Shown piece by piece: positions 1 to 27,470 of a DNA stretch of 38,769 nucleotides. Position numbers and translations under genes: made by a program. The notes under the pieces were generated by a model that saw only the letters and a list, made by a program, of their open reading frames with translations, was not told the origin of the DNA and searched no databases. Each line of letters opens with the position of its first letter. Within the stretch, counting starts at the first letter, position 1. The stretch is from a virus. The stretch is taken from positions 1-38,769 of IMG/VR virus record IMGVR_UViG_3300031687_000042; one strand, given 5' to 3'.

Positions 1-576
1 ACTTCTAATGCTTGCTCGTAATGTAGTATACATATCAATGTCGCCTGCAATACTACCAAATTCAATTAATGCTCTTGAATACTTTTCTTGTTCGCTTAGT
101 AACTTTGCGTACACAGTTCCTACGCCTGTTGCAGCCACAGCTCCGTACAATAGCATTTTACTGCCTTTACCAACTACAGTAGCTACCGCAGCGGCTTTAC
201 CTCTAACCGGTCCTGTTAAGTTTCCTATACCAACACCAGCATTATAAAGTAACTTAGCTACTTCGTGTGACATGTCTGCAATAGCGTTTGCAGGACTTGA
301 TCCACTTGTGATTGATTTTATTGCACTATTAGAAATTTTACCTGCTTCTGCTACTGCGTTTTCAGACAAACTAGCTTTCTTTGATGCTGAGTCTGCTCTA
401 CGTGTTGCAATTTTTGCTCGTGCTATAGCATCACCACCAGCTAAAACTGCGGATATCTGGCCTATAGTAATACGAACACCAGTTAGGTTAGCGTTAACCT
501 GATCTAGTGTATCCTCAGTAGCCCAAGGATACTGTTTTAAGAGTGTTGCAAAATATTGTTGCATGTCTGCTGCCAT
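1..576 (-). CDS. Probable tail tape-measure protein, N-terminal part (runs off window)
   Basis: The frame is open from the ATG at 576 to the left edge, giving 192 codons with no stop, so the gene is truncated by the window. The visible part is Ala/Ser/Lys-rich and mostly helical. A hydrophobic stretch at about residues 128-160 is typical of tape-measure proteins, which set tail length and later enter the host envelope. It starts with MAADMQQYFATLLKQYPWA. It is divergent from gp26 and the small -1-frame gene, which resemble tail-assembly chaperones, and this neighbourhood supports the call. No catalytic motif is visible. The start has only a weak ribosome binding site, but a late-type promoter box lies 51 bp upstream. 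The identification is inferred from composition and context; another large helical virion protein is possible. Confidence 0.5.
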   Translation of the reverse strand, partial: MAADMQQYFATLLKQYPWATEDTLDQVNANLTGVRITIGQISAVLAGGDAIARAKIATRRADSASKKASLSENAVAEAGKISNSAIKSITSGSSPANAIADMSHEVAKLLYNAGVGIGNLTGPVRGKAAAVATVVGKGSKMLLYGAVAATGVGTVYAKLLSEQEKYSRALIEFGSIAGDIDMYTTLRASIRS

Positions 577-674: not shown

Positions 675-1505
675 ATGACAAACCCATTAATTGAGGCATA
701 TCGTAAACCAGCGTTATATATTGCTTTGCCAAGTGGCGGTAAGTTTTACAAAACTAAACCAAAACTCAGTATAGACAATGAACTAGCAGTTTACGCAATG
801 ACAGCAAGGGACGAACTCATTTCTAAGAACCCAGACGCTTTGTTTAACGGAGAAGCCACAGTAAGTTTAATTCAAAGTTGTTGCCCTGACATTACAGACC
901 CAGAGTCTATGCCAGTTGGCGATTTACTTGTAATTTTAGTCGGCATTAGACAAGCAAGTTATGGAAAAAATATTGATGTAGACATCAAATGCCCAGAGTG
1001 TAATTTTGATAATCAGTTAACTATTGATGCATCTATTATGTTATCTAACATGGATACAAGCAAAGAAACAACACATGTTACGTTAGCAAATGGATTCAAG
1101 ATAGACTGTTTACCATACACGCTACGTGATAGAACTGTATTACAGATACAGCAAATTAAACAAAATAAGATGATTCAAGGACTAGCAGACGAGAAACTAG
1201 ATGACGCTGGAAGGCAAGAATTGTTCGGAAAAACGTTTGTAGAAATTGCTGAGTTAACTGTAAAACTAATTACTAATAGTATTGTAAGTGTACAGGCTAA
1301 AGATACAGATCAAATAACAGACAAGGAACTAATAGGTGAATGGTTGCAGTCTATAACTAGACAAGACTATGATGTTATTAAAGACAAGATAGAAAAACTA
1401 AGTGAAAGCGGATTAGAAACTAAGTTTAATGCATCTTGTCAGGACTGTGCTCACACGTGGAAAACTGCTGTTGATTTAGACATTGCAAATTTTTTCGAGG
1501 GTTGA
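675..1505 (+). CDS. 26: gp26-like baseplate hub / tail-assembly protein
   Basis: This 276-aa protein belongs to the T4 gp26 family (T4 baseplate protein). Two CxxC pairs, at C106/C109 (CPEC) and C255/C258 (CQDC), look like a zinc ribbon split between the middle and the C-terminus. In T4 gp26 is needed for hub assembly but has not been placed in the mature tail structure, so a chaperone role is plausible. I chose the ATG at 675 rather than the in-frame ATG at 648, because AGGAGA at 659-664 lies before 675 and inside the longer reading. The stop overlaps the TTG of the next gene (TTGA). The last codons contain a slippery run and a hairpin that may fuse this protein to the downstream -1 frame. 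Confidence 0.8.
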   Translation: MTNPLIEAYRKPALYIALPSGGKFYKTKPKLSIDNELAVYAMTARDELISKNPDALFNGEATVSLIQSCCPDITDPESMPVGDLLVILVGIRQASYGKNIDVDIKCPECNFDNQLTIDASIMLSNMDTSKETTHVTLANGFKIDCLPYTLRDRTVLQIQQIKQNKMIQGLADEKLDDAGRQELFGKTFVEIAELTVKLITNSIVSVQAKDTDQITDKELIGEWLQSITRQDYDVIKDKIEKLSESGLETKFNASCQDCAHTWKTAVDLDIANFFEG

Positions 1506-1522
1506 TATCTTCTCGTCAACCC
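1487..1522 (+). promoter_or_regulatory. Candidate programmed -1 ribosomal frameshift signal
   Basis: In the gp26 frame the heptamer A_AAT_TTT (1487-1493) is followed at once by T_TTT_TTC (1490-1496). Both fit X_XXY_YYZ. After the first heptamer come 5 nt, then a perfect 7-bp stem, GGGTTGA (1499-1505) with TCAACCC (1516-1522), around a 10-nt loop. The downstream ORF lies in the -1 frame, which is open from 1475 to 1732. A slip would give a fusion of about 352 aa. The arrangement matches the lambda G/GT type of tail-chaperone signal; that it functions here is inference. Confidence 0.65.
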
Positions 1523-1732
1523 GAAGAAATACTTAGAATAGTAGAACGTTATCAAAAAGACATGGAAACTGCTGAAAGTAATTATTTAGATATAGTTATA
1601 CGTAGTGAAGGTACGATTGGTTACAAAGACATCATGGGTATGCCAGTTGACAGTATTAAATTGTTAATTGAGAGAATGAATCACAGAGTTGAAGAAATCA
1701 ACAAAAACAATGCTAGAGCTGCTCGCCGGTAA
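1502..1732 (+). CDS. Small tail-assembly protein in -1 frame of gp26 (gp51 position)
   Basis: This 76-aa acidic, helical protein starts at a TTG that shares three bases with the gp26 stop (TTGA). In T4 the gene following 26 is 51, a hub assembly catalyst, but T4 gp51 is much longer and I see no sequence identity that proves homology. The only purine-rich stretch, GAGGG at 1497-1501, abuts the TTG and is too close for normal initiation. Expression may therefore be by -1 frameshifting from gp26, or by coupled re-initiation; an internal ATG at 1562 is another option. A short helical protein fused by frameshift to a larger one, next to a tape-measure gene, is the hallmark of tail-assembly chaperones. 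Its 3' end overlaps the convergent gene by 20 bp. Confidence 0.65.
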   Translation: MISSRQPEEILRIVERYQKDMETAESNYLDIVIRSEGTIGYKDIMGMPVDSIKLLIERMNHRVEEINKNNARAARR

Positions 1733-2827: not shown

Positions 2828-2856
2828 ACTATAACAGAAGAGTACTGTGTTGTCAA
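2828..2856 (-). promoter_or_regulatory. Sigma70-type promoter for the ncRNA
   Basis: Leftward, TTGACA (2856-2851) is followed by a 17-bp spacer and TATAGT (2833-2828). This is a perfect -35 and a 5/6 -10 at ideal spacing. Predicted start is near 2821. The -35 overlaps the stop codon of the GIY-YIG gene. Confidence 0.7.
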
Positions 2857-3302
2857 CCATTCTTAAGATGTTCTGTCAAAATGCGTGAGCTACCTACTCT
2901 TACGTTAATAATGCCGTTGTAGTATTCATCGGATTCTAATACTCTACGGTCGAACTGTTCCTTTGCTTCTAAGTAACTTAATACTCCTCGGCTAGGACAG
3001 TAGTGTAAAATTTGTCTAGTGAACTTGTTTTCACCTAGTGTTAAGATGTCAGCATTCAAATGATCTGAAGAACCCCAATAGGTTTCCCAATCACTTTCTT
3101 TAGTGCCTCGTCTTTTATTCTTTCTTCCTTTAAGCGGTGGTTTAGTTGTTTTAAACCTTGCTAACTTCTTACCTATGTACTTGCGGTCGTTAGTAGTATT
3201 TGTAATTAAGTATACAAATCCTTCAACGCCTTCTGGAATCTCTGTGACTACTTTATTATTGTATGTCCATGGGACATTACTTTTCTTCTTTGTACCACTC
3301 AT
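2853..3302 (-). CDS. GIY-YIG nuclease-like protein (SegE-type)
   Basis: The 149-aa protein has the two-part GIY-YIG signature: VYLI at residues 30-33 and KYIG at 41-44, with Arg49 in the spacing expected for the catalytic arginine. The length and single compact domain resemble the small Seg-type free-standing endonucleases of T4-like phages rather than intron homing enzymes with a DNA-binding extension. The C-terminal half (CPSRGVLSYLEAKEQF) is Glu/Arg-rich and could supply the metal-binding Glu. It sits between gp46 and the putative ncRNA, leftward like both, and its start overlaps the 55-aa ORF by 26 bp. Free-standing Seg enzymes often spread by cutting a related phage near their own locus; that activity is inferred from family, not seen here. 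Confidence 0.75.
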   Translation of the reverse strand: MSGTKKKSNVPWTYNNKVVTEIPEGVEGFVYLITNTTNDRKYIGKKLARFKTTKPPLKGRKNKRRGTKESDWETYWGSSDHLNADILTLGENKFTRQILHYCPSRGVLSYLEAKEQFDRRVLESDEYYNGIINVRVGSSRILTEHLKNG

Positions 3303-3444
3303 TTATTAATCTTTTAATTCTGTCTAATGTATCTATTCCTATAGTTACTTGATCTATTGTATTTGGAGCATGCATTAATACATACTCTGGATTATTATAA
3401 TCTTCCAATTTTAATTCTCTCTGGTCGTTGTCCAGGTTATGCAT
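3277..3444 (-). CDS. Small acidic hypothetical protein, 55 aa
   Basis: The ATG at 3444 overlaps the gp46 stop codon region (GATGCATAA), and the frame runs 55 codons to a TAA at 3277, reading MHNLDNDQRELKLEDYNNPE at the start and ending in a Lys/Glu-rich tail. It fills an otherwise unexplained 134-bp gap and overlaps the GIY-YIG start by 26 bp, as expected for a compact, translationally coupled phage operon. Composition is ordinary for a soluble, partly helical protein. I recognise no domain. It could also be a chance ORF, since no strong ribosome binding site precedes it. Confidence 0.55.
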   Translation of the reverse strand: MHNLDNDQRELKLEDYNNPEYVLMHAPNTIDQVTIGIDTLDRIKRLINEWYKEEK

Positions 3445-5212
3445 CAATTACTTCTATCTCAGTATTAAATGTAGTGAAGCCGTTTTCTTTTGTAACTTGC
3501 AATACGCTGTTAACACGGCCTACTAATTCATCACGATGAGATATAAGTAAAATATTCTTATGCCTATCACGTTCCATTTTCTTAAGAACTCCTAATGCAC
3601 TTTCCACACCTACAGTATCCATTCCACTGTCAACTAGTTCATCAATGCAAACTAAGTTAATAGGGTGATTCATGCTTTCAAAAACATCTCTAAAACTCCA
3701 ACTAAGGCCAAGTATCAATCTGTTACGTTCACCTCTACTTAAATTGTCAAAGTCTAAATCCTGTCCTAGCTGTGTAATAGTTATAGTAAGATCGCTTTGG
3801 AACTGTACCTCATGTGGTAAGCCTAAGCGTGTAATATAATATTCTAGACGTGTGTTTAGGAACTGTAGATTCTGTTCAATAATTTTCTTACGTATAAAAC
3901 TATCTTTGTTAGTTAACAGTTTTAACAAAAAGTCTTGATGTTCTTTTAGTTCCTCAAGTCTATTTACCTCCAGCCAACTTATCTCTTGCATGCCAGTTTC
4001 ATTTAATGAAACAATTTGGTCTACATATGGATCTGTTTCTTCGCTAGTTGTTTCTAGTAAACGCTTATTAGATGCAATCTTATTTTGATGTTCATATGCT
4101 TCTTTTAAGCTATTATATTCAATACGTGGTGCATCGCCCAACACGCCTACTTCATTAAGTGCAATTTTGTATTCTTCAATAGTAGCATTGTCTTTGTCAA
4201 TGTGAACTTGACTTTCTGCTACTGCTTCTGTTTTACTTTTAATAATTTTTTCATGTGCTTCGTCATGTAGTTCTTGTCCACATGCATAACATTTTTGTTC
4301 TAATGTAGTATCTAGGTCTTCTTGTGCTTTGTCTAAGCGTCTTTGTTCACGTCCTAAACTACTTGTAAGTTTAGCAATTTCTGCATTTAATGTATCTATT
4401 TGTGTTCGCTTTTCATTAAACAATGCAAACTCGCCGTGTGCTAATAACTCTGCTTCAATGTCAATATGTTCTAATGCATTAATCTCACTAGCGTATTCGT
4501 TTAGCTTATCTTCTTGTTTATTGGACCAATGTGTTTGTCTACGCTCCAAGTCCTTGATAGTAGAACCAATACGATCATTGGCTTCTTGTGCGCCTTTGAT
4601 ACGATATGATTCTTCTGTTACTCTATCCTTTGTACCTTTGAGAAGCTCTTTAAGTATATCAGCTTTCTGACTTAGCTTTGTAATACCTAGTAGCTGTTCA
4701 ATCATTTCACGCTGATCATTAGCTCGCATACTTAGGAAAGGTTCTGTGTACGTATTTAATGCAACAATGTGTTTAAACATTGTATGACTCATACCAAGCA
4801 CATCCTCAATAACCTTTTGACTCTGCCTGCCTTCGCCTTGCATCTCATCAGTTACACCTTCGTTACTATCAACATTGTTAACAAGTAACTTGAATATGTT
4901 TTGCTTGCGTCCACGTTCAATACGATAACTAATACCGTCTTTATCAAAGTCAACAGTGACTAACATGTTCTTATTATTAGTCTTGTTAACTAAGTTATCC
5001 TTTTTAATATTGTACAATGCATTACCATACAATGCATAACTTAGTGCATTAATGATGGTTGTTTTGCCTGTACCATTACGTGAACCATCTCCACCTAAGT
5101 CAATGTTGTTACCTAACACAAGTGTTAGTCCGTGTACATCAAAGTGGATAGCCTGTGTGACGTTACCCACACTCATAAAGTTCTTTACAGTGATATTTTT
5201 AATTTTCAGCAT
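3437..5212 (-). CDS. 46: gp46 recombination endonuclease subunit (Rad50/SbcC-like ATPase)
   Basis: This 591-aa SMC-type ATPase works with gp47 (Mre11/SbcD-like) to resect DNA ends for recombination-dependent replication and host DNA breakdown. The Walker A motif is at residues 43-52 (GSRNGTGKTT). Long coiled-coil arms flank a zinc-hook CYAC at 308-311. The ABC signature LSRGE is at 491-495, Walker B VCIDE at 521-525, the D-loop DSGMD at 528-532 and the H-loop SHRDEL at 558-563. All key residues are present and the length is near that of T4 gp46 (about 560 aa). It starts 2 nt after the gp47 stop, in the T4 gene order 55-47-46 on the same strand. Confidence 0.95.
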   Translation of the reverse strand: MLKIKNITVKNFMSVGNVTQAIHFDVHGLTLVLGNNIDLGGDGSRNGTGKTTIINALSYALYGNALYNIKKDNLVNKTNNKNMLVTVDFDKDGISYRIERGRKQNIFKLLVNNVDSNEGVTDEMQGEGRQSQKVIEDVLGMSHTMFKHIVALNTYTEPFLSMRANDQREMIEQLLGITKLSQKADILKELLKGTKDRVTEESYRIKGAQEANDRIGSTIKDLERRQTHWSNKQEDKLNEYASEINALEHIDIEAELLAHGEFALFNEKRTQIDTLNAEIAKLTSSLGREQRRLDKAQEDLDTTLEQKCYACGQELHDEAHEKIIKSKTEAVAESQVHIDKDNATIEEYKIALNEVGVLGDAPRIEYNSLKEAYEHQNKIASNKRLLETTSEETDPYVDQIVSLNETGMQEISWLEVNRLEELKEHQDFLLKLLTNKDSFIRKKIIEQNLQFLNTRLEYYITRLGLPHEVQFQSDLTITITQLGQDLDFDNLSRGERNRLILGLSWSFRDVFESMNHPINLVCIDELVDSGMDTVGVESALGVLKKMERDRHKNILLISHRDELVGRVNSVLQVTKENGFTTFNTEIEVIDA

Positions 5213-17318: not shown

Positions 17319-20300
17319 ATGGCGAATAAAAAAGCAGGTTCATCAAAGGTCCGCAGTATCAAAACAAAGAAGTTTTTACCTCAAGTATTCCAAACTGAAT
17401 TAAATAATAGTTGGCTTGATAGTACATTAGATCAAATGGTTTCAAAAGGACCATTGGACCAAGTTGATGGATACATAGGTAGTAGACATGGCTCAGAAGC
17501 TCAAGCACATGACTCATATGTTGACCCAGTTACAGAAGTTAAACTAAGAAAATCAACTTCATTAACGCCTGGTATTATATCTTATGATAACACTGGAGCT
17601 ATAACAAACAAGATTACATATGACGATGTAGTACACTCGTTGAATGCAAACTTTAATGAGTACAACTATAACTCAGCATACTCGTCTAATGCATTTTCTT
17701 ATAACCCGCCTTTTAATATTGATAAGTTTATTAACTTTAATAATTACTATTGGGTTGAAGAGCTTCCAATTTATACTAGTATCTACACAGGCACAAGCAA
17801 GAATCCATTAACTGATATTCAAAATACCAATGTATATACATTAGTAGATGACACTAATACAATTGTATTAGAAAATAATATGTTAATTAAGTTTGTTGGC
17901 TCAGGCTACGATGTAGCATGTAGAGGAAGTACATATATTGTATTAGGTACAGGTGAAGGAAACGGTGAACATAGGTTTGAACTTTATATTGATTTTAATC
18001 AAATAAGAGTTTATAACAGTGTTACAAAACATACACAAGCCAATGATGGTATTTGGGATAACAGCAAAGTACATTCTGTTACACCTAATACAAATAACAA
18101 ATACTGGCTGGCACCGTTTGGAAAAAGAAATTACGGAGCATTACTTACTGCATATAATGCAGATCCTATAGCAGATAGGTTACCGGTTTTTGATGGCTTT
18201 ATATTTGAAGATGTAGAATCTAATAAGTCATTGTATAATGAAAACGTGTTAGTTAAGTTCACAGGAACAGGATGGGTTGATGCAACTCTCGATGACTCAG
18301 AATCTATTTACGTAACTAAACGTGATGCTACTACTGGCAATCTTAGTATTAAGAAAGTAATAGTAGCAACATATGATAGTGTTAATGACAAGTACACACT
18401 TGCTATTGCGTCTGACGCAACACTAGCTGAACGTGCAATGATAGCAAGAGCAGAAACATTTGATACTGCTATGTGGGATTGGATGTTACCAGTAGAACCA
18501 TTAAAAGATTATTTACTTATTGAGAAACATGACGTGTTTAACACAGCATGGAGTAGAGCAAACCATTGGGTTAACATCAGTGCAATTAATAAATTAAAAA
18601 GCATTATGCCTTTCCAAAACTTTGATAATATAATTACTACTAAAAGAAAAGCAATAAGACCTATTATAGAATACACAGCAAGAATAGATTTATGGAACCA
18701 TGCAAGACATGTTAATCCTGTAAGCCTTGGCACAATAGACTTTGGTGTTAAGACAGGTGATGTGTTATCTGCTATTCCAGTTGGCTCAACATACGTATAC
18801 GTTGACAACTCAGATACAAAAGTATATACACAGGCAGCAACACCAACAAGTGTTACGCTTGCTGAAAATAATACAATGACAATTAAAGCTGTACTTGATA
18901 ATACATTAAGTGCTTGGGTTAATGCAGATGTGTATTATACTAACAGTACTATTACTTTAGCACAACAGAAGACAAAGATCAACCAATATCCACTTTATAA
19001 GTTTTATGATCATACAGGTAAATTACTAAGCGACATTGCTGGTACTAACTTTAAAGGCGAGAAGATATTTGGATATAAGCCAGGCAAGGGTGCAGTTGAT
19101 ACTGAGCTTGGAATGAAATTAAGTTATAAGGATTCTTTAAAAGGTGCTGAGTATCAATTTCAAAACTTTATACTAACAACTAGATATAAAGCTAACTTCA
19201 CACAAGCAGAAAATGCAAAGTTAGATTATCATCAGAACCTTACAGGATATAGTTTATATAAGAAACGAAATGTTCTTGAAGGTGTTTATAATAAATCAGA
19301 TCTTAACTTTGGCGCAAAAGAAACAGTACAGTATAAAATTACAAATCCTGATACTGATTTAGTTATTCCATATGGTCATGGAAAATGGAGACCACATCAA
19401 GAAGAATTTAATGTACATCACATTGCTGGTAAGCTAGCTGTAACAAGAAGAAACGTTTCAGACGGAACTGCAATTACATTTACTGGTACACGTGAATATA
19501 ACATAGGATATTCTCATATAATTAAGTTTGTTAATTCAACAACAGACGCACTTACGTTTATAGCACCAGGAGGCATTGACATTGAAGCAAACCCAAGTCA
19601 TGCAAACAATCCAGATATAACAATACAACGCTTCGGCGATGTTGTAAAGATTGAAACAGGTTCATCAAGCATAGGCGGCACATTTGATGTTAGAGCAGGA
19701 TCTAGTAGAATAGGATCATTTAATATCTCTAATGAGTGGGACGCTAACTATTTTGATATTACATTAAATGGTAAACGTATTAAGGATGCATTAGTTACAG
19801 TAACAGGCTCTAGTATTACTATTGACGAAACTGCATTAACTGCAGACGACTTAGTTGATTTTACATGGAACAGTAACAAGCAAAACAACAACGTAAAGAA
19901 TTATAGTTACCCACAAGTAACACAGCATAACGTACACAACAAAGTAATTAAAACATTTACAATAAGTGAAACAATAGATCATTGGGCAGATAAACTAAAT
20001 GCCAATCCATCGTTTGATAGAAATACATTTGGTGAGAATAACTACGGATCAATTACACACAACAGAAGCACAGGCGGAACTTTGTTCCTACATGATGACA
20101 TTGCAGTAATGAATGACATATGTTATTCAGATGAGAAACTAGATGTTACAGGATCTCTTATTGAACAAGCTGGTGATTGGGATGCGTTTAGAGAAAGATT
20201 CAAAGCACAAGCAAAACGTTTATACTCAGTAACTGCTTATCCATCAGTACAAGAATTAACAACAGCTACGCTAACTGCATTGTTGAGAAACAAACGAACA

Positions 20301-23300
20301 AGCAAGCTACACAGCGATTCTAATATGTTGTTTAATAGTGAAGATGCATTACAAACATTTACTATTACAGATACATCAGTTAAAGAATTTGAAACTAAGT
20401 GGACTTTTAACGGTGACGTTAATATTAGAGACCACGTGTATGTTTACCTAACTGAGTCAGATGGTACTAACACATATAAAAGAATTTTAAGAAAAGATAT
20501 TGATTACACACAGCTAGGTAATGCAATTACTATATTGCTTACATATAACACAACTGTAACACCTGTACTAGAAGTAGTATACAATCAAATGGACAGTGAG
20601 TGTTATGTACCTGCTAGTTTGGTTAAGCTAGGATTAGCATATGGAACACAGCCGGTAGTATCAAATAATATATTGTATACACATGATGGTGTAGAGATAG
20701 TATTAAAAGCTAACGCAGATTTAACTAATCCAAATAACTCAAGTTTGTTTGACCCAGTTAATGCGGCACTGTTTGAATTAGAAACACGTGTGTATGCTGG
20801 ACTAGTTAAAGAAGATACAACATACGATAAGACTAACACATCATCATACTATAACTTCTTACCAACACAAGCGTCAGCTACTTGGTATTCGTTAGAGCTG
20901 TTAAACAATTATTTAGAAAAACATTTTAAGCATTGGGCAGAGCTGAAACAAAAAGGTTCTCTTAACCAAGCAAACCAATATGTAGCTAACGATAACACAA
21001 CATGGAACTACAGTACTATACCATTAGGATTTAACTATTCAAATGCAACACCAGGACACTATAAAGGTGTGTATGTTCATTTGTTTGGAACAGCAACACC
21101 TGACTTAACTCCTTGGCATATGCTAGGGCATTCATTTAAGCCAACATGGTGGGATGCAAACTATAGCTGGGTAACTGGTTCAAAACGTACAGCGTTATTA
21201 AGTGCATTAAAGAATGGACTAGTAAGTGATCCTTCAGGAACACCTACACATGATATAGTATTTGCAAGACCACATTGGGACTTTGCAACTAAATCACCAG
21301 TAACAGGTTCAGGTACATTAGAAGATTTAACAACAGTAATTGGTACTCCGGCAAACGTTGATGCATCATCTGCATTTAAGTTTGGCGATTGGAGTTCAGA
21401 GGAATACGAATGGAGAGTATCTCCACAAGGACAAGCCGCAGGCGTTGATGCTATTATAAAATTAAATCCTGCTAGAGCTTGGAGTGCATTCTTCCAACCA
21501 GGCATACACAACAATGGCTATGCAGGAATTCAGAACGCAGGTAGATTTGGAAGTAGTAAGTCTTATAAAGTACCTGGCAACACGTATGGTAATTCAATTA
21601 TTAATATTGAAGTACAAGCATCACCAACAACAGTATCAGCAACTGAGAGCTTTATAGTACTTGATGACTTTGGAAGCACAACAGCTACAACAAACTTTAA
21701 ACTAAATGCATCTAGCAAGGTTAGTGCATTAAGTCTTACAAACAGAGGCGTGAAGTTTACTGGAAGCCCAATAGTTTCTTACTCAGGTGGAGCATCCAAT
21801 ATTGCAGGAATAGATTTTAAAATTACAACAGGTAGAATTGGATACGTAGCTAACGGTCTTTCACAGGCACAGTATAACTTTATACTAAGAAATCAAAATA
21901 GTAATTTGTCACAAGGACAGTTATATACAAACCTAGATACTAAGCTACACGAAAAGTTAGGTGGCTTTAGTAGTAAAGAATTGCTTGAAGTGTTTGCAGA
22001 AAGTAGTTTAACAGGCGACTTTGAATTTGGCAAGGCTGACTTTACAATTGATATGTATCAAGGCAGACCAACTAGATTAGTAACAGCTAGTGCAATTTTT
22101 ATTACAAAGACTTTAACAGGATTTACTCTTTCTGGATTAAGTAACAACAAACAAGAGTTTAACTTTTTTGAACCTAACATTGCAGATACTACTGATTATG
22201 AATTAGTAACAGTACAAGGCTCAACAGTTAGAAGATATAATAAATTTGTAACAACAGCTAGCACAATTGAATACGGTGCAGCCGTTGAGAAGATGCAAGA
22301 TGTTTATAACTTTGTTAGAGGATACTTTAGTTTACTAACAAAATTTGGATACACATTAGAATTTGATGGAGATAGTTCAGCATCAGACTTTGTTAACTGG
22401 GCTCTTACAGCAGACAACACAGATACATTTGTTTTACAGATAGGTAGAACAATATCGTTTAAAACTTTATACGGTACTGTATATCCATACAACAAACTAA
22501 CTTCCAATGGTAACGATGTATTAACAATGTTCAACAAAACATTACAAGACAGCGACCTAAGTGTTAACAGATCTAAAGGACTTGTTACAGTAGCTACTAA
22601 GAATGCAGAGTTCATAGGTAGCATTACTAGTGCAGTACTTGAGTATGATCATGTTATGATATTTGAAAATAAAACTAAACTAGGCGTTGCAATATATGAT
22701 GACGTGTTAAACCAAACACAAAAGCGTTTAGTGCTAAGAGGACAACGAACAGCTAATTGGAACGGAACTAAAACTGCTCCTGGCTACTTAGTGTTTGATG
22801 ATCATATTGTAGAAAACTTTGATAGTGCAGTACAAAGCATTGACGACATGTATAGAACAGATGTGGATTCATTTAATGGTGCGTTTACTCAATCAAAGGA
22901 TCTTGCAATAGGAAATGTTAATAAGACATGGGCAGATGGATTAGGTATTAATAAGAATGTACTTACTAAGTTCCATCAAGGATCAATTAAGCAACAAGGT
23001 ACTACAGCATCAATTGATAGATTTAATAGAGCATCAATAGTTGACGAAGGCATTACAAAACTGAACGCATATGATCAGTACATGTTTAGACAAAGTGAAT
23101 TAGGAAATAATGACTTAGAAGAAGTATTAGAAATAGAATTACGTTCTTCAGATTTAGTTGCATCGCCACAATGTATCTCTACACAAGATACACCAGCAGG
23201 CGGCGCGAAGGCTGGAGTAACATACACAGCACCAGAGCGTATTATTAATAACAAAGCAATAACTTTTGACACAAAAGACTTTACATATGATTGGAACTTT

Positions 23301-26300
23301 ATACTAACAGGCGGCGCCGCGTTAGACCACGAAGTTAAATATAGAATACTATCCGCAGATGATATTTCATCTGTGTTTGAGAAGACAGAGCCTTACGCAC
23401 TCGTACCTACTTGGAATAATTATACAAGTTATAAAAAAGGTGAGCAAGTAAGACACCAAGGACAGCTTTGGAAATGTAGTGTGAACTTTACAGGCTTAAC
23501 AGAAACAACAGCCACTATATTGGAAACAAGTAGAGCATCACGAGCAGACTTCCCACACGGAACTATAGCAGAAATAGCAGGTACTTCGGTAACATTTAAT
23601 AACACATCAACTGAGTACCAACCAATAATTGCAAATGGTACAGCAACTAGTCCTACATTTTTGCCAAGCGAAACATTAGTAATTGATAACATTAACATTG
23701 GCTTTAGTAAAACTGCAAACGTTCAAGTAGTTACAGGCCCAGCAATACAGCGTTCAACTTTAGGTAACGTTGCATTTGCAGATGTAACTGGACAAGGCAT
23801 TACAATTAATGGCACAGCAATTAGCTTTGGTTCAACACCAGCAAACGTAATTGAAAACTTTACAGGTGTAAACAATGGAACTGCACTTAATCCAGTTCTA
23901 CAAGCTACGTTTACAATTGCACAAGCATTAAGTGGAAGTACATTTAGCATAGCTTCGGTTACCGTTAATGGAACAGCAACAACAGCATACACGCTTAGTG
24001 GACAAAATATAACATTCACTACAGCACCAACAGCCGGACAAGCTATTGTAATTACATTAACACATGTAACAGTTGGTATAACAACAACTGGAATTAGAGA
24101 TGCTATTAATGCAGCCGGTGTAACAGGTGTTACATCTTCATTAGTTACAGCAAGTAATGTATTAGAAATAGCATATGCTGGAGGCGTAGGTGATGTATTA
24201 ATAATAGCACCAGCGGCAAGCAATGCGGCACTAGGATTTGCAACTGGCGGACACACTATTGCAGTACCAGTCGAGTTACAACTACAGCCAGCACAATTAA
24301 ACATTACTGAGATTGTAGCACAGATTAATGCAACATCAGCATTAGTTAACGTTACAGCAAGTAACGTTGCCAACAAATTAAAATTAGTAAGCACAGGTGT
24401 AACATTAGCAGTAGCAGGTACAGCTAGAACTACTGTGGGATTAAATACAACTTACTCAGCAACAACTTCAACTATTGCTGTACCAACTGTTAGAAGTGAT
24501 GCAGTTACATTGATACAGGCAGCAATTACAGCGGCAGGAAATACAGAAGTAACAATAGCAACTGTTGGTAACAACATAATAATTAGTTCAACAGGAACAT
24601 CACTTACATTAGGTGACACTACTTTCAACACGCTAGCAGGTTTTGACACAGGAACTAAAATAGCAACAGACGGTGGAGTAGTTAACACATTTGATGTAAC
24701 CGACTTTGGATCTACAGCACAAACATCTGACAACGCATTATACAACATACTAGTTACAGACGATAGTGCATTTGAAGTAGCGTCAAGAGGATCTATAACT
24801 ACTAAGTTCTTTGGTTGGAATGTTTTACAAGTTACACAAAGACCAGCACCATTGTATTCATATACTACAGCAACAGACGGTTGTGGAATTTGTGCAGGTA
24901 CATCAACATTAGATGGAAACGATGCAGAGGTTACTACTAACGTAGCACACGGATTACAAGTAGGAGACTTTGTGCAGTTACTAAACACAACTACTACTCC
25001 TAACATAGATGGTATTCACAAAGTAACAAAAGTAGGCACACTAGATACAGTATTTTACATAGACGAGTTTATTGAGATGTGCGGTAACGCAGTATCAATC
25101 ATGCCATTAGTTACAACAAGATTTACAGATGAAGTACAACGAGCATCTGCAATTGCACTTGCTTCATGGAACTTACCAGCTAAGACACTTATATACGAAG
25201 ACAGCAATGCAAGTGTATTAGGAACTTATGTAAGTAACATCACAGGAAGTACAGTGACAGCTAAGAGACAGACACTAAGCAGACCTACTAATAAAGACAT
25301 AGATAATATTACTGTATATAATTATAAAAAGAATAAATCTAATATCATATTAGAATCGTTTGATCCTTTAAGACATATTATACCGGGTATTGCTAAACAG
25401 AATGTAGATATTATAAATGTATCAGACAACGCAATTTATAATACATCATCTGACACAGGACAATCAGTAGACGATAATAATGCTTGGGGTACAGAACAAT
25501 TAGGAACAAGATGGTGGGACACTAGTAAAGCTAGATATTATGATTACGATCAGGGAGGTCTAGAGTATAGAGTTTCCAAGTGGGGAGAGTTATATCCTGG
25601 ATCAGAAATTGTAGTATGGGAATGGATTAAATCTTCAGTAGCACCAGACGACTATGCAGAGTCTGTATTGTTTGGTAAAGAGATTTACGGCGTACCTGCA
25701 ACAGGTGAGGCTTACGCAGTATACGATAAACTTACTGCAGAACTAGTATATCATTACACACTAACTACACAGTTTAACTCAGCAAACGGATCAAATGATG
25801 ATGTTTATTATTACTGGGTTAAGAACAAAACAACAGTGCAAGACGAAAGAACACTATCAGCATTTGATGTTGCTAATATTATTAGAAGCCCATCAACTAA
25901 CGGTGTAAGTTGGTTCGCTGCACTAACAGCAAATGAATTTATCGTAGACAATATATCTTATTACGTAGACAATAAGAGTACAGTACTACAAATTAATAAA
26001 GCACCTAACAAGTTTAAGTCACACAACGAGTGGACATTAATTGCTAAAGGTTATGATAATATTCCTGGATATTATATACAAGGAATGAAGTACAGCTTGG
26101 CTGGATGGAATAGTGTTAAGGCTAGAATCCCATTCAACACGCTACACAAATTTAACAAATACGGCGACAGTCTTGACATTGGACAGTCTTGGTTTAACAA
26201 CATAAACGAAGGTAGAAGAAATACAGCTGAAGCTATTAACTATGAACTTAGATCAGTATTAGTAGATGATGCGTATACTAACAAGTGGGACAGAACATTA

Positions 26301-27470
26301 GTTGCAAACAACTTCCCTACAACGTTATGGAAGTGGATTGATCATAAGCCAACTAGATACAATGGTACATTTAATTACACAACAACTGCCACAAGTGTTG
26401 CAGACTTAATAAACATAGACAGAGACTTTCATAAGGTAGTGAAAATTAAATTGTTTAATGTTGAAGCAGACCTTGACAGAAGTGAAATTTATGCGTATAA
26501 TGATGAGAAGGCCGAATGGGTACTAGTTCTTAAAAAGAATAGTAGTATTGAATTTAGCGTAGCAGACTTATGTCCTGAAATGGGATATGACAAGAGCGCC
26601 GAAGGCACACGTACAACAGCAAACGGAACTGTTATCAAAGGCGGATATTGGGATAGCGGCAAGTGGGATGTTGACAACGTTGCAGAGTATTGGCAGACAT
26701 TAATAACAGCATTAGACGAAGACATCTTCATAGGTAGAAACAAACTTAAGATGAATAAATTATTCTTTGGTGTTGTTGACTATGTGTTAAGTTCATTACC
26801 TCAAACTAACTGGATTAGAAAGACAACTTATATTAAAGTTGAGATTGCTAGCGAGTTTAACACAACGGCTAGAAAGTATAAGAGAAATAAAATTCATAAC
26901 ATAACTGGTTACATACAAGATGTTAAACCTTTCCATACTAAGATAAGCTCTACTATTAATAGTTTTGCTACTACTGAAAAGGTTAAAGCAAGTGTAACAG
27001 AATCATTAAGCATAGCAGTACAAACAAATACAAGTGGAAGCACATACGATACTAACACAAGAACGTTTGTACATTTACAAGACAACACAGGCAACGTTAT
27101 TGCGTATGCATTAGCAAGTGCTAAGGAAACAACGTTAGCTTCTGAACTTGGACTTAATGATACTAAAATAATAGTAACTAGTACTGCTGGCATTACAGCA
27201 ACAGGTACATTATATATTAACGGCGAACTGATTACATATACTAAAGTTGATGCAACTACAGTAACAGTTATAGCTAGAAACGTTAACAACACATTTAGAG
27301 CGGTAGGTGCGTTAGGAGACTCTATTACACAAGTAGATACTAACCAACTTACATACACTAACAGCCCTGCAACATTACAATATAATGTAGTAGGTAGTAC
27401 GATATTGAATAGTCCTGGCTCAACAGCGGCAGCAGAGTTGTCGGCAATTAGCAAGGGAATACAATTATAA
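17319..27470 (+). CDS. Giant baseplate wedge/virion structural protein (gp7 position), 3383 aa
   Basis: This single open frame occupies a quarter of the window. Position after gp6 and the N-terminus (KTKKFLPQVFQTELNNSWLD, residues 15-34) fit the large wedge/structural proteins of marine T4-like phages that take the gp7 place (T4 gp7 is 1032 aa). Most of the chain is beta-rich with many aromatic segments. Visible insertions are a W-x5-Y-x2-G-x2-V-x3-G-x2-W motif from residue 2032, similar to chitin/cellulose-binding CBM5/12 modules, and a Thr/Ala/Asn-rich block at about 2149-2455 with roughly three flagellin_IN-like repeats. A GTLYINGELITYT motif near the C-terminus is typical of tail proteins. 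The size suggests that wedge and surface-exposed fibre-like functions are fused. Exact homology to gp7 is not proven. Confidence 0.75.
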   Translation: MANKKAGSSKVRSIKTKKFLPQVFQTELNNSWLDSTLDQMVSKGPLDQVDGYIGSRHGSEAQAHDSYVDPVTEVKLRKSTSLTPGIISYDNTGAITNKITYDDVVHSLNANFNEYNYNSAYSSNAFSYNPPFNIDKFINFNNYYWVEELPIYTSIYTGTSKNPLTDIQNTNVYTLVDDTNTIVLENNMLIKFVGSGYDVACRGSTYIVLGTGEGNGEHRFELYIDFNQIRVYNSVTKHTQANDGIWDNSKVHSVTPNTNNKYWLAPFGKRNYGALLTAYNADPIADRLPVFDGFIFEDVESNKSLYNENVLVKFTGTGWVDATLDDSESIYVTKRDATTGNLSIKKVIVATYDSVNDKYTLAIASDATLAERAMIARAETFDTAMWDWMLPVEPLKDYLLIEKHDVFNTAWSRANHWVNISAINKLKSIMPFQNFDNIITTKRKAIRPIIEYTARIDLWNHARHVNPVSLGTIDFGVKTGDVLSAIPVGSTYVYVDNSDTKVYTQAATPTSVTLAENNTMTIKAVLDNTLSAWVNADVYYTNSTITLAQQKTKINQYPLYKFYDHTGKLLSDIAGTNFKGEKIFGYKPGKGAVDTELGMKLSYKDSLKGAEYQFQNFILTTRYKANFTQAENAKLDYHQNLTGYSLYKKRNVLEGVYNKSDLNFGAKETVQYKITNPDTDLVIPYGHGKWRPHQEEFNVHHIAGKLAVTRRNVSDGTAITFTGTREYNIGYSHIIKFVNSTTDALTFIAPGGIDIEANPSHANNPDITIQRFGDVVKIETGSSSIGGTFDVRAGSSRIGSFNISNEWDANYFDITLNGKRIKDALVTVTGSSITIDETALTADDLVDFTWNSNKQNNNVKNYSYPQVTQHNVHNKVIKTFTISETIDHWADKLNANPSFDRNTFGENNYGSITHNRSTGGTLFLHDDIAVMNDICYSDEKLDVTGSLIEQAGDWDAFRERFKAQAKRLYSVTAYPSVQELTTATLTALLRNKRTSKLHSDSNMLFNSEDALQTFTITDTSVKEFETKWTFNGDVNIRDHVYVYLTESDGTNTYKRILRKDIDYTQLGNAITILLTYNTTVTPVLEVVYNQMDSECYVPASLVKLGLAYGTQPVVSNNILYTHDGVEIVLKANADLTNPNNSSLFDPVNAALFELETRVYAGLVKEDTTYDKTNTSSYYNFLPTQASATWYSLELLNNYLEKHFKHWAELKQKGSLNQANQYVANDNTTWNYSTIPLGFNYSNATPGHYKGVYVHLFGTATPDLTPWHMLGHSFKPTWWDANYSWVTGSKRTALLSALKNGLVSDPSGTPTHDIVFARPHWDFATKSPVTGSGTLEDLTTVIGTPANVDASSAFKFGDWSSEEYEWRVSPQGQAAGVDAIIKLNPARAWSAFFQPGIHNNGYAGIQNAGRFGSSKSYKVPGNTYGNSIINIEVQASPTTVSATESFIVLDDFGSTTATTNFKLNASSKVSALSLTNRGVKFTGSPIVSYSGGASNIAGIDFKITTGRIGYVANGLSQAQYNFILRNQNSNLSQGQLYTNLDTKLHEKLGGFSSKELLEVFAESSLTGDFEFGKADFTIDMYQGRPTRLVTASAIFITKTLTGFTLSGLSNNKQEFNFFEPNIADTTDYELVTVQGSTVRRYNKFVTTASTIEYGAAVEKMQDVYNFVRGYFSLLTKFGYTLEFDGDSSASDFVNWALTADNTDTFVLQIGRTISFKTLYGTVYPYNKLTSNGNDVLTMFNKTLQDSDLSVNRSKGLVTVATKNAEFIGSITSAVLEYDHVMIFENKTKLGVAIYDDVLNQTQKRLVLRGQRTANWNGTKTAPGYLVFDDHIVENFDSAVQSIDDMYRTDVDSFNGAFTQSKDLAIGNVNKTWADGLGINKNVLTKFHQGSIKQQGTTASIDRFNRASIVDEGITKLNAYDQYMFRQSELGNNDLEEVLEIELRSSDLVASPQCISTQDTPAGGAKAGVTYTAPERIINNKAITFDTKDFTYDWNFILTGGAALDHEVKYRILSADDISSVFEKTEPYALVPTWNNYTSYKKGEQVRHQGQLWKCSVNFTGLTETTATILETSRASRADFPHGTIAEIAGTSVTFNNTSTEYQPIIANGTATSPTFLPSETLVIDNINIGFSKTANVQVVTGPAIQRSTLGNVAFADVTGQGITINGTAISFGSTPANVIENFTGVNNGTALNPVLQATFTIAQALSGSTFSIASVTVNGTATTAYTLSGQNITFTTAPTAGQAIVITLTHVTVGITTTGIRDAINAAGVTGVTSSLVTASNVLEIAYAGGVGDVLIIAPAASNAALGFATGGHTIAVPVELQLQPAQLNITEIVAQINATSALVNVTASNVANKLKLVSTGVTLAVAGTARTTVGLNTTYSATTSTIAVPTVRSDAVTLIQAAITAAGNTEVTIATVGNNIIISSTGTSLTLGDTTFNTLAGFDTGTKIATDGGVVNTFDVTDFGSTAQTSDNALYNILVTDDSAFEVASRGSITTKFFGWNVLQVTQRPAPLYSYTTATDGCGICAGTSTLDGNDAEVTTNVAHGLQVGDFVQLLNTTTTPNIDGIHKVTKVGTLDTVFYIDEFIEMCGNAVSIMPLVTTRFTDEVQRASAIALASWNLPAKTLIYEDSNASVLGTYVSNITGSTVTAKRQTLSRPTNKDIDNITVYNYKKNKSNIILESFDPLRHIIPGIAKQNVDIINVSDNAIYNTSSDTGQSVDDNNAWGTEQLGTRWWDTSKARYYDYDQGGLEYRVSKWGELYPGSEIVVWEWIKSSVAPDDYAESVLFGKEIYGVPATGEAYAVYDKLTAELVYHYTLTTQFNSANGSNDDVYYYWVKNKTTVQDERTLSAFDVANIIRSPSTNGVSWFAALTANEFIVDNISYYVDNKSTVLQINKAPNKFKSHNEWTLIAKGYDNIPGYYIQGMKYSLAGWNSVKARIPFNTLHKFNKYGDSLDIGQSWFNNINEGRRNTAEAINYELRSVLVDDAYTNKWDRTLVANNFPTTLWKWIDHKPTRYNGTFNYTTTATSVADLINIDRDFHKVVKIKLFNVEADLDRSEIYAYNDEKAEWVLVLKKNSSIEFSVADLCPEMGYDKSAEGTRTTANGTVIKGGYWDSGKWDVDNVAEYWQTLITALDEDIFIGRNKLKMNKLFFGVVDYVLSSLPQTNWIRKTTYIKVEIASEFNTTARKYKRNKIHNITGYIQDVKPFHTKISSTINSFATTEKVKASVTESLSIAVQTNTSGSTYDTNTRTFVHLQDNTGNVIAYALASAKETTLASELGLNDTKIIVTSTAGITATGTLYINGELITYTKVDATTVTVIARNVNNTFRAVGALGDSITQVDTNQLTYTNSPATLQYNVVGSTILNSPGSTAAAELSAISKGIQL
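23764..24680 (+). repeat. Flagellin_IN-like tandem repeats encoded in the giant protein
   Basis: About three imperfect units of the form INA-x-GV-x-S-x5-N-x-L-x-I, ending in an ALGFATG, VGLNT or LAGFDTG block, at protein residues about 2149-2455. Composition shifts to Ala/Thr/Val/Asn and lacks the aromatics of the flanking sequence. Such repeats fold as small surface beta/alpha domains in flagellin and in some phage adhesins. Confidence 0.55.

Follow-up and report, generated by a model that had tools for sequence, protein, structure and literature searches.

A programmed -1 frameshift at the end of a gp26-like gene is very probably the best explanation of the locus described here, because the elements involved are conserved. 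Positions refer to the window, the whole 38,769-nucleotide stretch of viral DNA that was analysed. The frameshift would extend the gp26-like product into a 352-residue fusion, which is probably the long form of a tail assembly chaperone. We infer the slippage itself and its rate.

The gp26-like gene (675 to 1505, plus strand) is preceded by AGGAG, encodes 276 residues and belongs to the Pfam T4_baseplate family. Its product matches PF12322 with an E-value of 1.8e-20 and 74 bits, above the curated cut-off of 24.5, and is assigned to phrog_150, baseplate hub, in PHROG. T4 gp26 (8.8e-64) and T4 gp51 (3.9e-52) both match PF12322 and, as members of the same Pfam family, are therefore paralogues. 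Family membership suggests that the window gene encodes a chaperone, of which the 276-residue product would be the putative short form. The gp26 structural model (pLDDT 85.7) retrieves T4-like baseplate hub assembly proteins from BFVD. Against the PDB, VIA-align superposes it on the HK97 tail assembly chaperone 2ob9, the HK97 gp13 fold (Z 6.3, rmsd 4.1, 89 of 107 residues), with unrelated helical proteins scoring as high; this likeness is suggestive only and falls within the chance range for helical models. Foldseek against the PDB gave no match below E 0.3, searches by sequence in the PDB and in host genome contigs gave no match, and wide profile scans with mixed alignments returned nothing informative.

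The final codons of the gene are GCA AAT TTT TTC GAG GGT TGA, and its 3' end reads AAATTTTTTC ahead of a 7-bp hairpin. Two heptamers overlap here, both in the correct codon phase: A_AAT_TTT (1487 to 1493, plus strand) and T_TTT_TTC (1490 to 1496, plus strand). The second has the X_XXY_YYZ form required of a slippery heptamer and sits in phase where the first frame ends. The hairpin (1499 to 1522, plus strand), a probable frameshift stimulator, pairs GGGTTGA (1499 to 1505) with TCAACCC (1516 to 1522) across a 10-nt loop, and the zero-frame stop TGA (1503 to 1505, plus strand) lies within its 5' arm. This combination of slip site and hairpin occurs once in the window and in none of 100 shuffles. 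A preliminary description of the DNA had pointed to the overlapping heptamers and the hairpin at the end of gp26, and both stand. The 5-nt spacer it gave is correct when counted from A_AAT_TTT; from T_TTT_TTC the stem is only 2 nt away, which is closer than usual and may be the reason why this lineage keeps both heptamers.

Conservation of the slip site and of the -1 frame, which the preliminary description had proposed to check in related phages, extends well beyond the window, and the check yielded no refutation. The set of 165 viral contigs comprises 80 that carry a relative of the window gene at 35-100% identity, 80 of cyanophage type and five of jumbo type; these loci are kin, and the counts are not independent events. 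In every contig, T_TTT_TTC occupies the last Phe-Phe, and the -1 frame runs uninterrupted through the slip site and continues for 100 nt or more after the gp26 stop. The median openness past the stop is 224, 185 and 209 nt in window-, cyanophage- and jumbo-type contigs, respectively, versus 22-30 nt in the +1 frame. Among 18 isolates, including jumbo phages, cyanophages, KVP40-like phages and others, 15 have T_TTT_TTY (TTTTTTC in 12, TTTTTTT in three), and in jumbo phages T_TTT_TTC and the -1 frame are kept at 25-33% gp26 identity. A_AAT_TTT, which had been named first, is kept in this marine lineage only. It is found at 41 of 43 distinct window-family junctions, the two exceptions being one with G_GGT_TTT and one lacking such a heptamer, and it is missing from cyanophages, most jumbo phages and some close relatives. 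This rules it out as the sole slip site, and the family-wide heptamer is T_TTT_TTC.

Constraint on the T-run is visible at the nucleotide level. The TTT TTC pair shows zero synonymous variation in 54 distinct window-type and 77 distinct cyanophage-type genes, where TTC is the rarer Phe codon (TTT:TTC 336:101 and 695:322, respectively). Additionally, the slip region is the window of lowest synonymous diversity of the gene in both families. This minimum, together with the absence of the pattern from shuffles, rules out a chance T-run.

Several isolates vary at this site. In the Ackermannviridae Serratia phage 3M (L024) and Vibrio phage VAP7 (L028), the -1 frame is kept and gp26 ends in CAG GTT TTC or CAC GTT TTT, a G-T-run variant that resembles the GTTTTT signal reported for Vandenendeviridae. 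In the record of Streptococcus phage vB_SagM-GXN1 (L031, about 3205-3500), the T-run is replaced by GAA TTC TTT CGT and the downstream tail-like frame is in +1 relative to the gp26 homologue, making a +1 frameshift possible there.

The hairpin has a folding energy of -11.8 kcal/mol (z -3.25), and its stem covaries. Pairing is intact in 92.7% of stem cells over 43 distinct junctions, versus 86.9 in shuffled alignments, and the covariation score of 0.181, versus 0.103 shuffled, is reached by none of 500 shuffles; the covariation signal is lost when the partner arm is slid. The key pair joins the third base of a Gly codon, which is also the first base of a -1 Leu codon (TTG or CTG), to the third base of a -1 Gln codon, and all four combinations at this pair are synonymous in both frames. 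Among 54 genes, C-G occurs 25 times, U-A 21 times, U-G eight times and C-A never (Fisher 1e-8 with kinship ignored), with at least nine changes on the gene tree. Since C-A is never seen although every combination is doubly synonymous, amino-acid constraint cannot explain the key pair, and such constraint alone is ruled out there as the cause of hairpin conservation. Some members of the lineage have a mismatch at the outermost stem pair. In cyanophages, the junction is often more stably folded than its shuffles (median z -2.16), though not into this hairpin; among jumbo phages, a common downstream structure or hairpin was looked for and none was found.

These features also bear on transcriptional slippage, in which RNA polymerase would add one U on the T6 run and produce mRNAs that are already in the -1 frame. 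The invariant six-T homopolymer fits such a process. However, six Ts make a short run for polymerase slippage, conservation keeps that run in the right codon phase as T_TTT_TTC, and the covarying RNA hairpin directly downstream fits ribosomal stimulation better, which leaves transcriptional slippage highly improbable.

The -1 frame extension (1496 to 1732, plus strand) is open from the slip site through its TAA stop (1730 to 1732) and would supply the C-terminal domain of the putative long form, 78 residues beginning RGLISSRQPEEI. A slip at either heptamer gives the identical product of 274 gp26 residues plus 78, with the junction ...DIANFF-RGLISSRQPEEI..., and the fusion length of 352 residues proposed earlier is thus exact. 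Differences by -1 codon position number 436/193/728 in the window family; in cyanophages they number 1434/744/2846 over codons 4-20 and 1345/529/3732 over codons 21-45. It is conceivable in principle that the conserved elements serve gp26 only and that the -1 frame is a leftover, now decaying, of a gene that was once fused. Both the codon-position bias of the frame and its openness in 165 of 165 loci (100 nt or more after the stop, with a median near 200) argue against this, and its probability is close to negligible.

Production of a separate small protein by termination-reinitiation would also use this frame: TTG 1502 overlaps the TGA stop (TTGA), and terminating ribosomes could restart there. 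The overlap is present in the window, an ATG overlaps the stop in several relatives (PhiW-14, 121Q, VH1_2019 and VAP7), and one cyanophage annotation favours reinitiation with a 46-residue gene beginning at an internal ATG. Nevertheless, 25 of 54 relatives carry CTG in place of the TTG, a start codon is missing from this site in most jumbo phages, and the start has no ribosome-binding site. Reinitiation also leaves the missing synonymous variation of the T-run unexplained, and conserved -1 coding starts upstream of any internal ATG; restarting at the stop is very unlikely. In the window, no Shine-Dalgarno sequence precedes either start near the front of the -1 ORF (TTG 1502, ATG 1562), which agrees with the preliminary description of a small ORF exactly in the -1 frame that lacks a usable ribosome-binding site. 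No start with even a 3-base ribosome-binding match lies in the first 40 -1 codons of 41 of the 54 relatives, and gp26 starts with a match of at least 3 bases are found in 43 of 54. In cyanophages, weak ribosome-binding matches are common at internal ATGs, the commonest site being codon 19, and separate initiation appears less clearly excluded there.

Profile comparisons relate the extension to the T4 proteins. In alignment, T4 gp26 terminates a few residues past the Phe-Phe at the slip position, whereas gp51 runs on past it with a tail of about 40-50 residues. By hhalign, the window tail matches the jumbo-phage extensions with a probability of 98.5 (E 2.7e-15). The T4 gp51 tail is matched by cyanophage tails at 96.6, KVP40/PhiW-14-type tails at 96.5 and jumbo tails at 69.5, versus 0.1-0.24 for reversed controls. 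The window tail reaches a probability of 6 against the T4 gp51 tail directly, and the connection runs via the jumbo phages. A tblastn search of the -1 ORF alone in phages found no match. The tail is modelled as a helical hairpin (pLDDT 84.5). On these profile matches, the small frame is probably the counterpart of the C-terminal tail of gp51, T4 gp51 itself being a gp26 paralogue plus that tail. This refines the earlier proposal of a gp26/gp51 pair made by frameshifting: the small frame is ruled out as a whole gp51, which contains a full PF12322 domain. T4 itself encodes genes 26 and 51 on different strands, unconnected by any frameshift.

Copy number differs among isolate genomes. In a survey of 22 genomes with Pfam hits, two PF12322 genes occur in six (T4, Octan, RB43, phiP4-3, Aeromonas 31 and SFHK24), and a single copy with an overlapping -1 frame occurs in the other 16. 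The gp26 gene ends without a slip heptamer in all five two-copy genomes that were read (T4, Octan, SFHK24, phiP4-3 and Aeromonas 31; RB43 was left out). The window record and two large window-type records have one PF12322 copy each and are possibly fragments. From this distribution, gene duplication may have taken over from recoding in the T4 branch. A broader scenario, which we regard as tentative and rather unlikely as a whole, starts from one frameshifting gene as the ancestral state of the T4-like chaperone. Recoding would then have been swapped for duplication in the T4 branch, with gp26 as the short form and gp51 as the long form. The marine lineage would have reinforced recoding by stacking slip sites and by hiding the stop codon inside a covarying hairpin, so that the proportion of long form would be unusually high or regulated. 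One-copy frameshifting and two-copy T4-like genomes allow two solutions to fixing a protein ratio to be compared as they occur in nature.

The neighbouring gene (1 to 576, minus strand) is divergent, runs off the window and represents the N-terminal part of a tail structural gene, possibly the tape measure. Its homologues in L001 and relatives are about 650 residues long. A weak link by way of L199 connects it with RaK2_00088, whose annotation reads 'similar to tail tape measure', and its PHROG class is virion structural, head and packaging. The tape-measure-like neighbour noted in the preliminary description is therefore present, but on the opposite strand, and weak homology hints at its identity. 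In L001 (1-2902, minus strand), this gene is followed by a second one that matches it weakly (27.7% over 137 residues, E 6e-4, in L004), and the N termini of the two resemble each other in a PAWASE/PWATE motif; a single longer gene is found in distant relatives. Elsewhere in the window, a single open frame of 3383 residues (17319-27470, plus strand) lies in the structural gene region. A 149-residue protein (2853-3302, minus strand) has a match at 2.8e-37 to phrog_447 and weaker ones to homing endonuclease families; the name given to phrog_447, NAD synthetase, looks like a misannotation.

Under programmed frameshifting, most ribosomes translating gp26 would stop at TGA 1503 and release the 276-residue short chaperone. 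A fraction, aided by the hairpin just downstream, would move one base backwards at T_TTT_TTC; in this lineage, the overlapping heptamer A_AAT_TTT may serve instead. These ribosomes would continue in the -1 frame and complete the 352-residue long form with its 78-residue helical tail. On the model of lambda gpG/gpGT, the tape measure protein may be coated during tail-tube assembly by many copies of the short chaperone and few of the long one.

These results support the view that, in many jumbo and marine T4-like phages, the gp26 gene labelled 'baseplate hub' encodes a tail assembly chaperone with two products. Public records for such loci give a short gene and a separate or missing hypothetical gene. 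The records of PA5oct and RaK2 (L015, L018) annotate no gene for the conserved -1 frame after gp26, and among the public records viewed, none joins that frame to gp26. Additionally, the covarying hairpin provides a defined element for mutation. The kind of system is already known; what is added here is the membership of this lineage, the breadth of the signal, which extends over many giant phages and some 165 contigs from the environment, and the covarying hairpin.

A comparable arrangement is the lambda gpG/gpGT tail assembly chaperone frameshift, reportedly described by Xu, Hendrix and Duda in 2004. Both loci lie beside tail genes and have a slip at the last codons that gives a short product and a rarer -1 long product, which in the window is predicted. 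The lambda G/GT hallmark of an overlapping second frame in -1 without its own ribosome-binding site recurs, with the -1 frame in the window and all 165 contigs and no ribosome-binding site in the window. Unlike in lambda, the neighbouring gene in the window is divergent rather than downstream and the covarying hairpin is a feature of the lineage; the lambda slip heptamer also differs, and no sequence homology to lambda was detected here.

Closer parallels come from other phages. The available part of PMC12846349 describes a GTTTTT -1 frameshift in chaperone genes of Vandenendeviridae and Andersonviridae and, citing earlier work, treats poly-T frameshift signals in such genes as known. Like the window gene, these genes have a poly-T slip site close to where the short chaperone ends, a conserved -1 frame of more than 200 nt and a downstream part that is missed or misannotated, but they belong to other phage families and use another motif, and that part of the text mentions no hairpin. 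The link between a gp26/gp51 pair and the tail-chaperone mechanism, whose novelty the preliminary description had left open, has been reported before for T4-like phages (Vladimirov, Gautam and Davidson 2022, Virology 566:9-15, as cited in PMC10885494 and PMC12846349). As far as these sources extend, the T4-like pair and the window share the PF12322 family and the same short and long forms; T4 and its near relatives encode them as two paralogous genes, whereas in the window one gene with a -1 slip would make both.
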